Assembly (NCBI GenBank): GCA_027493055.1
Contig: JAPUDO010000046.1
Location: 62,001-126,000 of the forward strand
Source of the DNA: Niabella sp.
GTDB lineage: Bacteria > Bacteroidota > Bacteroidia > Chitinophagales > Chitinophagaceae
Direction of reading: 5' to 3'
Length of the DNA stretch: 64,000 nt
Part shown: in pieces, positions 4,156 to 26,278 of the stretch
Layout: each line of letters opens with the position of its first letter
Position numbering within the stretch: position 1 is the first letter of the stretch
Position numbers and translations under genes: made by a program
Notes under the pieces: model-generated
Databases searched by the model: none
The model's input: only the letters and a program-made list of their open reading frames with translations
Told to the model about the DNA's origin: nothing

Positions 4156-4452
4156 GTTCTTTTTATTTAATGGAGATTTTTATTAAATAAGTATTGTACC
4201 ATCATTTATTCCTCTCAACTAGCCTCACCAAATGTGACTGTCACCATCTGATAAATAATTGACATATTTACAATTATTAACCAAGGTAGCCTATCCCAAA
4301 GGTTAGTCCATCCCGTTCTGTCCTGACATAACGATTTCCAAAATGAAATTTATGTCTGAAAGGAATCAAGTATTAATGTGAATGCGTCATTGTTAATTTA
4401 AAGATGCTTTCCCATGTATTATATTCCCAGCTTAAGCCTTTCAGAACAAGAG
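4156..4452. other. Intergenic region upstream of SusC 1
   Basis: About 300 nt between the GH106-like stop and the SusC 1 start. It is AT-rich and has no ORF. I see no clean TAnnTTTG element on the minus strand and no strong terminator hairpin; the nearest -7-like sequence is TACCTTGG (plus-strand positions about 4283-4290), which is off consensus. It probably holds the SusC 1 promoter or leader. Confidence 0.4.
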
Positions 4453-22252: not shown

Positions 22253-22567
22253 TTACGGCATGTAAAACACTTCGTTCAATGGTACAGATACGGGTGACTT
22301 ATCGGGATTAGTTTCCATAATATCTGCCATATAGGCCCACCATTTTTTCATTACGGGATGAGAGGGCAGATCGTCCATTGATTTACCCTCTTCCAGCTTC
22401 AGCACTCCCAGCAGGTCATTGGTATCGTTGTCCAGGAAGATAACATAATCGCTCACGCCGGTTTCTTTTAGCAGGGCCGATAGCTCGGGCCAAATTTCAT
22501 CATGTCTTTTTTTATACTCGGCTTCATAACCTTTGAATAATTTCATTTTAAAAGCAAGTCGCTGCAT
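22253..22567 (-). CDS. rhaM: L-rhamnose mutarotase
   Basis: A 104-residue ferredoxin-like fold protein, full length. It aligns along its whole length with Escherichia coli Rha[12 protein letters not shown] with the catalytic His22, [42 protein letters not shown] and the C-terminal EVFYMP. It interconverts alpha and beta anomers of L-rhamnose, speeding entry into rhamnose catabolism. There is no signal peptide, so it acts in the cytoplasm. It is the first gene of the minus-strand cluster rhaM, GH105, PL22, and confirms that rhamnose is a product of this locus. Confidence 0.95.
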
Positions 22568-22757
22568 ATATCAAACTATTGAGTTAAGAAAGTTGCAAAG
22601 ACAGATATTATAACCGTCCTATGCTTACAATCGTTATTCTAAGATAGTATATTTCTTATTCTGCGGCATCCTGCTCTGTCCTGATGGAAGGATAAAAGAA
22701 GTAATTATATGTATAGATTTTCCTTACAGTCAATACGCCCTGCCAGTATAGCATTTT

Positions 22758-22809
22758 AATATTACCAGCCAAATCTATATATTTTTGACTACTTTTGGCT
22801 ACTAATATT
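22758..22809. repeat. Palindromic flanking repeat, left copy (overlaps ATPase promoter)
   Basis: An inverted repeat with 16-nt arms (AATATTACCAGCCAAA and TTTGGCTACTAATATT, two mismatches) around about 20 nt. Its first 49 nt (22758-22806) match 24275-24323 as a direct repeat in 40 of 49 positions. The ATPase start codon follows the right arm by 7 nt. Confidence 0.85.
22780..22787 (+). promoter_or_regulatory. Candidate -7 promoter element for the ATPase gene
   Basis: TATTTTTG matches TAnnTTTG and lies in the centre of the left palindrome, 29 nt before the ATG. The right copy of the repeat has TATTTTTT instead, so it has lost the final G. The palindrome arms therefore flank the promoter as an operator would. 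Confidence 0.45.
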
Positions 22810-22816
22810 TATTAAC

Positions 22817-24250
22817 ATGAATATACTGACAGGAAGAGAAGATGAAAAAGAAGTGCTAAAAGATCTTCTTCGATCTGAGAAGCCGGAGTTACTTGCTATA
22901 TATGGGAGAAGAAGGGTAGGTAAAACCTTTTTGATTAAAACTTTTTATCAGGAACATATTGTATTCAGCTGCACAGGTGAATACAAAGCGGATACCGCAA
23001 CCCAGCTCGCCAATTTTAAAGAAAAACTGGCGCTCTGGTTTCCCGGCAAAGTACAGGCCGATGCACCGCAAACCTGGCAACAGGCTTTTATATTGCTGCG
23101 GGGTATGCTGCTATCCATTAAAAGCAGGAAAAAGAAAGTGGTATTTTTTGACGAACTACCCTGGATGGACAGCCATAAATCGGGCTTCCTTTCTGCATTC
23201 GGATATTTCTGGAACGCGTATGCAGCCGATATACCCGGCATCATTGTAGTAGTATGCGGATCGGCTACTTCCTGGATCATTGATAAAATAGTGAACGACA
23301 AAGGCGGACTGCATAACAGGATCACCCGGCGCATCAGGTTGCTTCCTTTTAGCTTAAAAGAAACAGAACAGTTCCTGCTCAGCAAAAACATACAGTACAG
23401 CCGGTATGAATTGCTGCAGCTGTATATGGTAATGGGAGGCATACCTGCTTACCTTAATGAAGTGAAAAGGGGCAAAAGCGTAGCCCAGAATATACAATCC
23501 ATTTGCTTTTCGAAAGACGGGGTGCTGGCCGGTGAGTTTAATAACCTGTATGCAGCACTGTTCAAATACCCCGATAGACATATACAGGTCATTTCTGCCC
23601 TGGCTAAAAATAACAAAGGGCTCACCCGTACAAAGTTGCTATCTGCGGGCAAACTACTGTCCGGCGGCACACTTACCAAAACGCTTACAGAGCTTACGGA
23701 AAGCGGATTTGTGGAAAAGACCTATCCGTTTGATAAAAAGGAAAAAGAAAGCCTGTATCGGCTGATCGATGAGTTTTCTTTATTTTATTTCCGTTTTATA
23801 CACCATCAAAAAAGCCGGCTCAAAGATCAGTGGCTTACCCGGCAGGCTACGCCACATTACCAAAGCTGGTGCGGTTATGCCTTTGAAAATATCTGCATCA
23901 AACACATAGGGCAAATAAAACGGGCATTGCAAATAGGTGCCGTGCAAACAGGTGTGTCATCATGGGTATTAGCAGGTAACAGAACAGAAAAAGGAGTACA
24001 GATAGACCTGCTCATTGACCGGGCCGACCATATCATCAATATATGTGAAGTGAAATACAGCAATAAAAAATTTATCATTGACAAACGGTATGCCGGTGAA
24101 CTGAAGGCCAAAAAAGAAGTATTTCACATGCGCTCCAAATCTAATAAAACAATTCACCTGACCATGGTCACTACTTATGGTGTTAAGGACAATGACTATA
24201 AAATGCAGTTAGCTGACAGTGAAGTGCAGATGGAAGATCTATTCAGATAA
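22817..24250 (+). CDS. AAA-type ATPase with C-terminal nuclease-like domain (DUF234-type family)
   Basis: A 477-residue protein of the archaeal-type ATPase family common in archaea and Bacteroidota. It has Walker A GRRRVGKT (30-37), Walker B VVFFDE (108-113), a sensor-like VVVCGSATSWI, a winged-helix region (about 255-320) and a C-terminal domain with QIDLLIDR...EVKYS (about 394-415), the spacing of a PD-(D/E)xK-type nuclease core. No membrane segment is seen. It is the only plus-strand gene between rhaM and the sulfatase and is bracketed by two copies of a palindromic repeat, so gene plus repeats may be one mobile cassette inserted beside the pectin locus. The function of this family is not established; DNA binding or cleavage is inferred. 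Confidence 0.75.
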   Translation: MNILTGREDEKEVLKDLLRSEKPELLAIYGRRRVGKTFLIKTFYQEHIVFSCTGEYKADTATQLANFKEKLALWFPGKVQADAPQTWQQAFILLRGMLLSIKSRKKKVVFFDELPWMDSHKSGFLSAFGYFWNAYAADIPGIIVVVCGSATSWIIDKIVNDKGGLHNRITRRIRLLPFSLKETEQFLLSKNIQYSRYELLQLYMVMGGIPAYLNEVKRGKSVAQNIQSICFSKDGVLAGEFNNLYAALFKYPDRHIQVISALAKNNKGLTRTKLLSAGKLLSGGTLTKTLTELTESGFVEKTYPFDKKEKESLYRLIDEFSLFYFRFIHHQKSRLKDQWLTRQATPHYQSWCGYAFENICIKHIGQIKRALQIGAVQTGVSSWVLAGNRTEKGVQIDLLIDRADHIINICEVKYSNKKFIIDKRYAGELKAKKEVFHMRSKSNKTIHLTMVTTYGVKDNDYKMQLADSEVQMEDLFR

Positions 24251-24274
24251 AAATTGTACAACATTTTCTATTGG

Positions 24275-24323
24275 AATATTAGTAGCCAAATCTGTATTTT
24301 TTCATGCACTTTTGGCTACTAAT
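24275..24323. repeat. Palindromic flanking repeat, right copy
   Basis: A direct copy (40/49) of 22758-22806, beginning 25 nt after the ATPase stop. It has perfect 13-bp arms, ATTAGTAGCCAAA (24278-24290) and TTTGGCTACTAAT (24311-24323). No T-run follows, so it is a poor terminator; together with the left copy it looks like element ends. Confidence 0.85.
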
Positions 24324-24356
24324 TGTAGATCTTTACGCTTTGGGCTTCGGCAGATG

Positions 24357-24398
24357 CCATGGTCGATAGTTCATGGTCTATGATCCATTGTCAATCGA
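24357..24398. repeat. Degenerate heptamer array (CCATGGT-like units)
   Basis: Consecutive 7-nt units CCATGGT, CGATAGT, TCATGGT, CTATGAT, CCATTGT, CAATCGA run up to and over the sulfatase stop codon. A closely related array lies at 44201-44277, next to map. Confidence 0.6.
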
Positions 24399-25804
24399 CC
24401 AAAAGGAAAATCTGTACTTTCTGTATGTTCCTTCTGCATTATTGAAGCCATTTTAGCTGCAATACCGGGATGAGCGGCGGCTACATCATTTTTTTCAGCG
24501 GGGTCCGTATCAAGATCATATAATTCTATAGAAGTGTTCTCTTCCATTGCTTTTAGGCGTACCGCTTTCCACCGGCCCATGCGAACAGCCTGTTTGCCTC
24601 CCTGCTCATGAAACTCCCAATATAAATGATCATGCTGTTTTTGTTTGCGTCCCTGCAGTTCCCGCACAAAGGATATGCCATCAACACCGGACGGGGGTTT
24701 GGCTCCGGCCAGTTGCGCTAATGTGGGCAACATATCCCAAAAGGCTCCTATGTATTGAGATTGGGAGCCAGGTTTGATCTTGCCGGGCCAATATGCAATA
24801 AAGGGCGTGCGGATACCGCCTTCGTACAGATCTCTTTTAATGCCACGAAAACCACCGCTACTGTTAAAAAAAACGGGATCATTGCCTCCCTCCTGATGCA
24901 CACCGTTATCACTTGCAAAAAATATCAATGTATTTTTGTCAATACCTAGTTGTTCCAGCTGCTGCTTTACTTCTCCTACGTACTGATCCAACCGGCTAAC
25001 CATTGCCGCATAAGCTGCATGAGGATAAGCCTGTGGCTGATACCCCTTACCCACCCAGCCGCCTGCTACTGCTGCAGGCTGTTCATTAAACAGCTTTTTA
25101 TAAAAAGTAAACAAAGAATCATCGTTAGGCAGCTGCAATGCTGCATGAGGTAAAGTGTACGACAGGAAAAGAAAAAACGGCTTGCTCTTATTATTTTCAA
25201 TAAAAGCCCTGGCTTTATCATGAATAAGCCGGGCTGAATACACCTGCTGATCCTGGGGTGAATTGGGTAGATCAATCCTTGTATTGTTGTGCCATAAATG
25301 ATCCGGAAAATAGTCATGTGCCAGCGACTGGCAATTATATCCATAAAATTCATCAAAGCCCTGCTTTACAGGATTACCAGGCGTTTCGATATAACCTAAG
25401 CCCCATTTGCCAAAGCAGCCTGTGGCATAGCCTGTGCCTTTTAAAATTTCAGCAACGGTCACTGCATCTGCCGGTAAAGGCCATTGCCCTTCGGGCTGGG
25501 TGGATTTATTACCGCGGATGGGTGTGTGGCCTGTATGCTGACCGGTCATCAGCGATGAGCGGGATGGCGCGCAAACTGAGGTACCGGAATAGAACTGGTT
25601 AAACTTCATCCCTTCCTTTGCCAGCAGATCAATATGGGGGGTTTTTATTTTTTGCTGGCCGTACACGCCTATATCACCAATGCCCAAATCATCTGCCAGT
25701 ATGAATATCACATTGGGCTTCGTAAGCTTACCCTGGGCATTTACTGCCGGAAAGCCATACATAAAGAATGCTAAAAAAACAAGCAGGATACTTTTCTGAT
25801 TCAT
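24371..25804 (-). CDS. S1-family sulfatase (arylsulfatase-like)
   Basis: A 477-residue secreted sulfatase from the Met at 25804 (MNQKSILLVF); the frame extends 20 codons further but into the stress-protein gene and without a signal peptide. After a signal peptide ending VNAQ come PNVIFILADDLG with metal ligands D38/D39, and SVCAPSRSSLMTG with Cys78 in the C-x-P-x-R motif, which must be oxidised to formylglycine. FFASDNGVHQEGG supplies further metal ligands. The desulfated substrate is unknown; placement beside the pectin locus does not prove a role there. It starts 10 nt after the stress-protein stop, so the two share a transcript. No sulfatase-maturating enzyme is in the window. Confidence 0.92.
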   Translation of the reverse strand: MNQKSILLVFLAFFMYGFPAVNAQGKLTKPNVIFILADDLGIGDIGVYGQQKIKTPHIDLLAKEGMKFNQFYSGTSVCAPSRSSLMTGQHTGHTPIRGNKSTQPEGQWPLPADAVTVAEILKGTGYATGCFGKWGLGYIETPGNPVKQGFDEFYGYNCQSLAHDYFPDHLWHNNTRIDLPNSPQDQQVYSARLIHDKARAFIENNKSKPFFLFLSYTLPHAALQLPNDDSLFTFYKKLFNEQPAAVAGGWVGKGYQPQAYPHAAYAAMVSRLDQYVGEVKQQLEQLGIDKNTLIFFASDNGVHQEGGNDPVFFNSSGGFRGIKRDLYEGGIRTPFIAYWPGKIKPGSQSQYIGAFWDMLPTLAQLAGAKPPSGVDGISFVRELQGRKQKQHDHLYWEFHEQGGKQAVRMGRWKAVRLKAMEENTSIELYDLDTDPAEKNDVAAAHPGIAAKMASIMQKEHTESTDFPFGRLTMDHRP

Positions 25805-25814
25805 AAATAAATTT

Positions 25815-26278
25815 CTAATTATTTTCAACGGTAGGTACCACAAGGATAGGGATCTGAGCTTCATGTAATATTCTTACAGATGTTTCGCCACTTAATAAAC
25901 GGGACAGGCCACTACGTTGATGCGTACCTACCACAATCATTTCTGCACCTGCTTCCTGTGCATAATTTACTACTTCATCTTCTACCGAACCTAACAGGAT
26001 ATTTACCGCCACAGGCTTTACCTGGAGCGACTCCACCAGCTTGCTCAGTTCCTCTTCAGCTGCTTTTTTATGAGTATTGATCAGCTCTATTTCATTAGGC
26101 AAAATAGCTGGCTCAAGGGCGCCCAGCGGGTCCATAACATTAATGCCTGTATAAGTACCCACAGGAGGTATTACATGCACCAGGTGCAGCTCAGCATTGA
26201 GCTTACGGGCCATCTCAGCAGCCTTATTTAAAACAACTTCTGTTTTTTCCTGGAGGTCTAACGCGGCTATGATTGCAT
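25815..26278 (-). CDS. Universal stress protein (UspA family)
   Basis: A single-domain UspA-fold protein of about 155 residues starting near 26282. It begins MNAIIAALDLQEKTEVVLNKA and ends with a nucleotide-binding-like loop GTHQRSGLSRLLSGETS and ILVVPTVENN. The canonical G-x2-G-x9-G motif is changed (Gln in place of the second Gly), so ATP binding may be weakened. The protein has no signal peptide and acts in the cytoplasm. It is transcribed divergently from the DinB-like gene across a 54-nt gap and is followed 10 nt later by the sulfatase. Function in this pairing is unknown. Confidence 0.88.

Follow-up and report, generated by a model that had tools for sequence, protein, structure and literature searches.

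Palindromic arrays at a defence-candidate ATPase-nuclease gene of Niabella sp. are probably binding sites of its own product

A gene for an ATPase with a winged helix and a putative PD-(D/E)XK nuclease domain, found in 64,000 nucleotides of Niabella sp. (contig JAPUDO010000046.1, positions 62,001 to 126,000; referred to as the window), is bracketed by two copies of a palindromic sequence in the same orientation. We consider these palindromes to be binding sites of the gene's own product, with autoregulation as their likely use, and not transposon ends, at a probability of roughly 70%. They were read as the protein's own sites because site bases covary with residues of the protein, and the sites, their geometry and this covariation were established by computation; that the protein itself binds the palindromes is predicted from the sequences with high confidence. 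Autoregulation by the array, which we infer, is the simplest use, given that the array directly precedes the gene and that no other site beyond the chance level is present in the own genome.

Repeat pair and its occurrence in the genome

The two copies (22758-22806 and 24275-24323) were identical at 40 of 49 positions, reproducing the hand count of the original prediction, while the best 49-nt match among 30 pairs of dinucleotide-shuffled 200-nt flanks reached 28. A repeat search lengthened the pair to 54 nt at 80% identity. Each copy had been described as palindromic, and this held for both, the upstream one being an imperfect palindrome (aatattaccagccaaa-N20-tttggctactaatatt) and the downstream one reading attagtagccaaa-N20-tttggctactaat; both consist of two inverted 19-nt half-sites, F and R, whose starts lie 31 bp apart (Table 1). 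A chance repeat was ruled out by the shuffled-flank, upstream-palindrome and half-site-shuffle controls.

The core pattern AGCCAAA-N17..23-TTTGGCT occurred in the own genome (5.75 Mb, 131 contigs) at two places at the locus and at one other, and the reversed control of the exact pattern also gave one match; the third genomic match is thus at the chance level. The looser palindrome GTAGCCAAA-N5..25-TTTGGCTAC, sought in 99 genomes including the own one, was found at one place outside the own genome, within an unrelated coding sequence. A dispersed repetitive extragenic palindrome (REP) or miniature inverted-repeat transposable element was ruled out, as the core palindrome is not scattered through the own genome.

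Upstream palindromes among homologues

Homologues were collected from 48 of 294 genomes of the same family, from 80 of 397 confirmed named loci, and from 27 of 79 genomes of one genus, taken to be Chitinophaga because two of its genes were identical to those of the named Chitinophaga records L213 and L215. The pool without identical genes comprised 158, of which 152 were used (160 nt upstream, a gene longer than 1,300 nt, and no N). The first palindrome statistic was obtained for 124 of 126 usable genes from an earlier pool of 133. The start codons used were those assigned by a script. In that first statistic, a palindrome scoring at least 11 was present within 130 nt upstream in 106 of the 124 homologues and in 1.3% of shuffles, compared with 30 of the 124 and 2.1% of shuffles for the 130 nt downstream.

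For the 152 regions, the best R half-site (roughly TAGTTTTGGCnnnTATAA) was sought in the last 62 nt before the gene. A free search 18-45 bp further up returned an inverted partner (at least 13/19) in 111 regions, 92 of them at 30-31 bp, and a free search at 40-70 bp returned a direct repeat in 91, of which 75 were at 52-54 bp. When R was kept and the rest shuffled, an inverted partner appeared in 20 and a direct repeat in 22 of 1,520 cases. When pairs were modelled jointly over 160 nt and only distances of 29-32 bp were allowed, 124 of the 152 genes fitted the pair model, at distances of 31 bp (82 genes), 30 bp (39), and 32 bp (3). Upstream palindromes of the same geometry are the rule among the homologues examined. 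The spacings, about 31 and 53 bp, nearly equal three and five turns of the helix, so the sites would face one side of the DNA. The consensus of the -7 promoter box is TAnnTTTG, which was present in 60/124 R half-sites and 27/124 F half-sites, and on these counts a promoter box was rejected as the sole cause of conservation. The sites of paralogues differed in 11 of the 12 genomes with at least two resolved sites (from 16 hand-listed genomes).

Ten distant relatives on plasmid and phage records were judged by eye, with no control, and six of them carried an upstream inverted or direct repeat of comparable spacing. Inverted pairs were seen in Emticicia and Butyrivibrio, direct repeats in Desulfosarcina (54), Wolbachia phage WO (56), and Malaciobacter (51), and an inverted repeat in one gut contig, whose start codon was estimated. 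At the phage WO locus (L302; MN180249.1, 9774-14222), the PDC-S27-like gene neighbours phage head genes, and the 56-bp repeat occurs twice upstream of it.

Covariation between protein and site

Covariation was computed for the 124 pair-model genes (effective number of sequences, 82) over 477 residues and 19 site positions, giving 9,063 pairs; the counts refer to the R arm. Residue 285 with base 10 ranked first of the 9,063 (z = 17): T285 went with T or C in 42/42 genes, G285 with G or A in 39/42, and R285 with C in 11/11. Residue 282 with base 7 ranked third (z = 12.4), S or T being accompanied by G in all 109 cases, D or E by C in all eight, and N by A in four of six. The fourth rank was taken by residue 310 with base 5 (z = 9.1), where genes having K, N or Q showed T in 86 of 89 cases and those having R showed A or G in 28 of 32. 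In the structural model, residue 285 lies near the start of the recognition helix, 282 one residue before the helix, and 310 in the wing. The window protein has S282, T285, and K310 together with G, T, and T at bases 7, 10, and 5 of its R half-site, respectively, and thus fits the code.

We repeated the comparison on 61 disjoint nearest-neighbour pairs of genes (identity at least 40%, median 71%; 6,201 residue-base pairs), a pairing in which shared ancestry weighs less. Residue 285 with base 10 again ranked first (p = 1.2e-7, about 7e-4 after multiple-test correction).

Of the 28 genes outside the pair model, 17 had a readable pair and served as a left-out test, and 11 were unused; the 17 had been excluded from the fit by their atypical sites and not by their residues. 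Residue 282 was N in 12, D in four, and E in one of them, and never S or T, while G at base 7 was found on none of the 34 arms. A stood on both arms in 11 of the 12 genes with N282, C on both arms in three of the four with D282, and T in the one with E282. R310 was accompanied by A in 4/4.

Downstream copies

A pair of the right geometry after the stop codon was found in 15 of 155 genes and in none of 150 regions 800 nt further on. The original prediction had proposed looking for homologues flanked by the same palindrome; palindromes of the same plan are indeed carried by homologues, but the downstream pair is restricted to these 15. At the 13 loci with both, the core of the downstream pair matched the upstream core of its own gene at 8.3 of nine positions, compared with 6.1 for other genes. 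Four loci next to the window gene carry a downstream pair (L035, L139, L143, and L151); L036, L140, L141, L142, and L145, whose relationship to it is as close or nearly so, do not belong to the 15. The alignment between the window and L035 continues through the downstream palindrome (+73/+61), and L035 sits at another locus, just upstream of a gene resembling seryl-tRNA synthetase as named by sequence reading. Since this homology runs through the palindrome at different loci, the bracketed arrangement is inherited with the gene in the clade of the window.

Domain organization of the protein

The domains that the original prediction had read from the sequence (an ATPase with a winged helix and a PD-(D/E)XK-like EVK motif) were borne out by Pfam, the structural model, and sequence conservation. 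In Pfam, the protein matched ATPase_2 (PF01637) at 59.8 bits (gathering threshold 33.2) and DUF234 (PF03008) at 30.4 bits (22.5); at an E-value of 0.01, these families matched 63 and 23 of the 63 aligned sequences, respectively. The PADLOC profile PDC-S27 matched residues 1-476 with an E-value of 2.9e-196, and it matched all 63 sequences, the window protein included. E357, D397, E411, and K413 are invariant in this alignment, and the EVK motif corresponds to E411-x-K413 of the PD-(D/E)XK-like site. This conserved E, D, E-x-K arrangement is the one expected of a PD-(D/E)XK nuclease, whose activity here is predicted.

An AlphaFold2 model, built from the window protein and 62 proteins of named loci, had a mean predicted local distance difference test score of 90.8. 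Its winged helix contains helices 252-264, 271-277, and 283-295 and strands 299-302 and 313-316, and its last domain holds E357, D397, E411, and K413. In our reading of the model, helix 283-295 would be the recognition helix, and the wing would lie between the two strands. The best solved structure in a Foldseek search was the Pyrococcus ATPase 2qen (TM-score 0.47 by query length). The matches included many ORC/Cdc6 chains, among them the DNA-bound Cdc6/Orc1 heterodimer 2qby (0.37 by query length), as well as plant NLRs and, lower, a chain of 8bob (maltose system), which we take to be MalT.

Coordinates of the features described are collected in Table 1. Gene names of the two neighbours were given at the first reading of the sequence.

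Table 1. Positions in the window of the half-sites, the gene with its domains, and the flanking features.
Feature	Position	Strand	Basis or remark
Upstream half-site F	22759..22777	-	Minus strand reads TAGATTTGGCTGGTAATAT
Upstream half-site R (TACTTTTGGCTACTAATAT)	22790..22808	+	31 bp from F; 8 nt before ATG
Weaker partial half-site, overlapping R	22780..22798	+	13/19 to R
Downstream half-site F	24276..24294	-	Reads CAGATTTGGCTACTAATAT
Downstream half-site R (CACTTTTGGCTACTAATTG)	24307..24325	+	31 bp from F
477-aa ATPase - winged helix - PD-(D/E)XK protein (ATPase_2/DUF234; PADLOC PDC-S27)	22817..24250	+	Profile matches; AlphaFold2 model
STAND/ORC-like ATPase domain, about residues 1-215; Walker A GRRRVGKTF, Walker B VVFFDEL	22817..23461	+	Pfam; model; fold match
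Winged-helix domain, residues 252-316	23570..23764	+	Model secondary structure; weak MarR_2 match (E 0.0051)
Codons 282 to 285	23660..23671	+	Covariation with half-site base 7 (S282) and base 10 (T285)
Codon 310 (K310, wing)	23744..23746	+	Covaries with half-site base 5
Putative PD-(D/E)XK nuclease domain, residues 346-476	23852..24244	+	Invariant site; model
Left neighbour, putative rhaM	22253..22567	-	Adjoins the sulfatase gene in five relatives without the ATPase there
Right neighbour, putative sulfatase	24371..25864	-	Neighbour comparison
Box upstream of rhaM, TCAGGACAGAGCAGG in the window	22670..22685	-	Marks the empty junction; TCAGGACAGTTCAGGACG in three same-genus relatives

Mobility of the gene

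In five genomes of the same genus (G001, G002, G003, G010, and G012), the putative sulfatase and rhaM genes are adjacent without the ATPase gene. The gap between alignment ends was 145-209 bp in the last four, whereas rhaM of G001 was matched in two pieces, the nearer one about 230 bp off. In-frame stops were present in rhaM of G001 and in the sulfatase genes of G002, G003, and G012, so some of these neighbour genes are broken or badly assembled. The box TCAGGACAGTTCAGGACG stands at the empty junction in G002, G003, and G012; in the window, the box upstream of rhaM is perhaps a sugar-regulon operator. The five empty junctions were too diverged for base-exact ends, and as the window has further sequence outside the palindromes, the exact ends are unreadable. 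For Chitinophaga-type copies, a search for a base-exact empty site retrieved relatives of the left and right flanks at separate places, none of them joined, and the left flank of L054 had no match in three sister genomes.

Nearly identical units were found elsewhere. L257 and L260 are 95.8% identical from -116 to +44, L189 and L207 97% from -197 to +12, and L239 and L258 96.9% from -209 to +197, the latter two both in G406 (a draft assembly in about 380 contigs, contamination 4%). L054, L056, L059, L233, and L234 are 86-93% identical with varied ends, most pairs having different flanks; L059 and L233 additionally share about 1.1 kb of left flank. In several other groups (L035/L139/L143, L067/L074, L058/L064, L083/L089, and L245/L248/L251), synteny extends for kilobases to one side or to both. 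The gene is thus both passed between lineages and stably inherited, but the palindromes do not set the ends of what moves. A recent or labile arrival of the window gene at its junction is supported.

The idea of a mobile cassette, as originally proposed, stands in part: the gene is absent from the junction in five relatives and near-identical units exist elsewhere, but these units do not end at palindromes. The original prediction would have been refuted by a repeat unique to this locus together with a gene kept at the same position in close relatives; the repeat is unique to the locus, whereas the gene is not fixed at that position. Its comparison of the palindromes with REP/RAYT or IS200/IS605-like ends was not supported, as the core is not dispersed, the downstream pair is present in 15/155 genes, and a Y1/HUH or DDE domain was found neither in the window protein nor among the 25 listed of the 26 Pfam families for the 63 sequences.

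Further observations were made at individual loci. A repeated stretch, which combines a terminator-like hairpin with GCGGGGTGnAGG...TTCGAACC..., stands before the ATPase unit in G406 and G355 and is found again nearby in G406 (L287 5570-5650; L288 3513-3585 and 4462-4514; L289 5828-5940), as if cassettes shared a recombination site; as the unit is bounded by these other repeats, its mobility may have another cause. L289 also contains a 99-nt repeat (1448-1546 and 4343-4441, 97%) that by reading resembles a group II intron end. Two Chitinophaga-type loci, L291 and L292, are 99.5% identical except for two length differences, one of about 0.9 kb immediately upstream of the ATPase array (L291 7990-8898 against L292 6655-6657) and one of about 3.5 kb at a greater distance. 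Short or interrupted matches in G399:C9, G396:C1, G368:C1, G398:C33, G362:C2, G330:C17, and G214:C8 are likely remnants of ATPase genes and a sign of frequent decay. G105 and G190, of one genus, have five diverged paralogues each, of which four sets are orthologous, three of these with shared surroundings.

Proposed mechanism and alternative explanations

We infer physical binding, oligomerization, repression, a trigger, nuclease activity, and looping as follows. The protein would read inverted 19-bp half-sites through its recognition helix and wing and would bind as an oligomer on one face of the DNA, where half-sites are about 31 bp apart and often repeated every 53 bp or so. As the upstream array lies directly before the start codon, binding would most likely repress or tune the gene's own transcription, and repression would keep a potentially toxic nuclease low until a trigger alters the state of the ATPase. 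The second site conserved after the gene in the closest clade of the window may allow looping across the 1.5-kb gene. The array and gene spread together horizontally as single-gene cargo, with the palindromes not being the mover.

Several observations weigh against the palindromes being sites of the protein or against parts of this scheme. The pair model leaves out 28 of the 152 upstream regions, and among the 124 fitted genes the end of the best pair is no more than 30 nt from the start codon in 65, the pair lying further up in the remainder. Overlap with the promoter is unproven because TAnnTTTG is present in 60 of 124 R half-sites. No convincing array was seen by eye in four of the ten distant relatives (Segatella, one gut phage contig, Halococcus, and Methanocaldococcus). 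Covariation is inflated by shared ancestry, to which we tentatively attribute the second-ranking pair, H120 with base 14 (z = 13.4), a residue in the ATPase domain. In a first, cruder pass over 94 genes, residues 216-320 accounted for 10 of the top 40 pairs, with 8.8 expected, and site distance correlated about equally with ATPase distance (r = 0.30) and winged-helix distance (r = 0.31). In the nearest-neighbour test, the three pairs following 285 were R104, K279, and N242 with base 13, which lie outside the helix and fail multiple-test correction (p from 9e-6 to 5e-5); residue 310 with base 5 ranked 59 (p = 0.001), and 282 with base 7 ranked 2,204 because both hardly change within pairs. Four exceptions to the 285 rule occur in the left-out genes (two of G with C and two of R with A), four have K310 with A on both arms, and several are closely related, so they amount to fewer than 17 independent cases. 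The fold matches are partial, as the TM-scores given above indicate.

We consider it unlikely that the palindromes are transposon-like ends which the ATPase-nuclease would bind and cut as TnsC plus TnsA do. The gene is missing from the same junction in five relatives, units of 86-97% identity stand in different flanks (L257/L260, L189/L207, and most pairs among L054, L056, L059, L233, and L234), and G406 has two near-identical copies. The alignments of L085, L092, and L094 stop at the downstream palindrome and, on the other side, no more than 20 nt from the upstream palindrome, the homology between the window and L035 runs through the downstream palindrome at different loci, and the protein probably binds the palindromes, all of which would suit such ends. 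However, a downstream pair is carried by 15 of 155 homologues and by none of the 11 best-case loci (L054, L056, L059, L189, L207, L233, L234, L239, L257, L258, and L260), the right ends of transferred units vary from +11 to +197, and L059 and L233 share their left flank for about 1.1 kb. Inspection by eye showed no target duplication, a base-exact empty site was not obtained, several loci are syntenic between species, and paralogues in one genome mostly have different sites.

That the palindromes act as RNA hairpins (an upstream leader regulator and a downstream terminator) and not as DNA sites is very improbable: arms of about 9-26 nt could form putative stems, and a location just before ATG and after the stop codon suits RNA elements, but a stem requires neither the two half-site orders that are found (F-R as well as R-F, the arms being separated by 0 to about 20 nt) nor direct repeats about 53 bp apart, and base identity tracks a DNA-recognition helix. 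The sites might instead be addresses for the nuclease, with the protein loaded on its own array and fired from there as a DNA-tethered immune sensor and gene control a side effect. PDC-S27 being a single-gene defence candidate, the STAND-like fold neighbours such as NLR resistosomes, and the regularity of the array, which suggests an ordered oligomer, speak for such addresses; any autoregulator would show the same sites, and we hold this to be quite improbable. A broader proposal, which is speculative and to our minds doubtful, is that PDC-S27 is a self-addressed immune nuclease, in which an ordered STAND oligomer sits on a private, helically phased array next to the gene encoding it and a change in this complex at the time of infection both raises expression and arms the nuclease. 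If so, the array would be a DNA tripwire whose address has diversified alongside the recognition helix, keeping paralogues of one cell from cross-talk. Binding sites read by the gene's own product, with likely autoregulation, remain the preferred explanation.

Significance and comparison with known systems

We rated the locus as a defence-candidate ATPase-nuclease with a private, coevolving operator array. New here are a predicted DNA site of fixed geometry for most of the 152 members and a partial protein-base recognition code with three named residues. The predicted sites make direct tests possible and give structural studies a defined substrate of 54 bp. Should the array also load or trigger the nuclease, immune effectors would be seen to be wired in a new way.

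The window protein is like PADLOC PDC-S27, a putative defence candidate in which an ATPase is fused to PD-(D/E)XK, with a profile match over its full length. PDC-S27 was reported with 3,503 archaeal and 4,562 bacterial occurrences and was called lacking validation as defence in the part of the source available (PMC12988326). In contrast to the present loci, the description of PDC-S27 in that part mentions no palindromes or DNA sites (PMC12988326). In the literature searched, which covered no bioRxiv preprints and few subscription journals, we found no description of such sites or of a target, trigger or regulation of PDC-S27.

Archaeal Orc1/Cdc6 proteins share with the window protein an ATPase and a winged helix, as reflected in the partial fold match to 2qby, but the window protein carries a nuclease domain in addition. 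Orc1/Cdc6 proteins read inverted origin recognition boxes located close to the genes that encode them. STAND regulators such as MalT, which binds repeated sites as an effector-driven oligomer, are partially matched through the 8bob chain (presumably MalT); in the window protein, unlike the MalT type, a nuclease domain replaces the sensor repeats, and its site was found just at its own locus. REP/RAYT and IS200/IS605 elements likewise have a gene between palindromes of the same orientation, from which the window gene differs in its missing Y1/HUH domain, in having no dispersed copies, and in units not ending at palindromes. The C proteins of restriction-modification systems are autoregulated and nuclease-linked, with inverted operators at their own promoter; the window protein differs from them in combining the site-reading domain, the nuclease, and a STAND-like ATPase in one chain.

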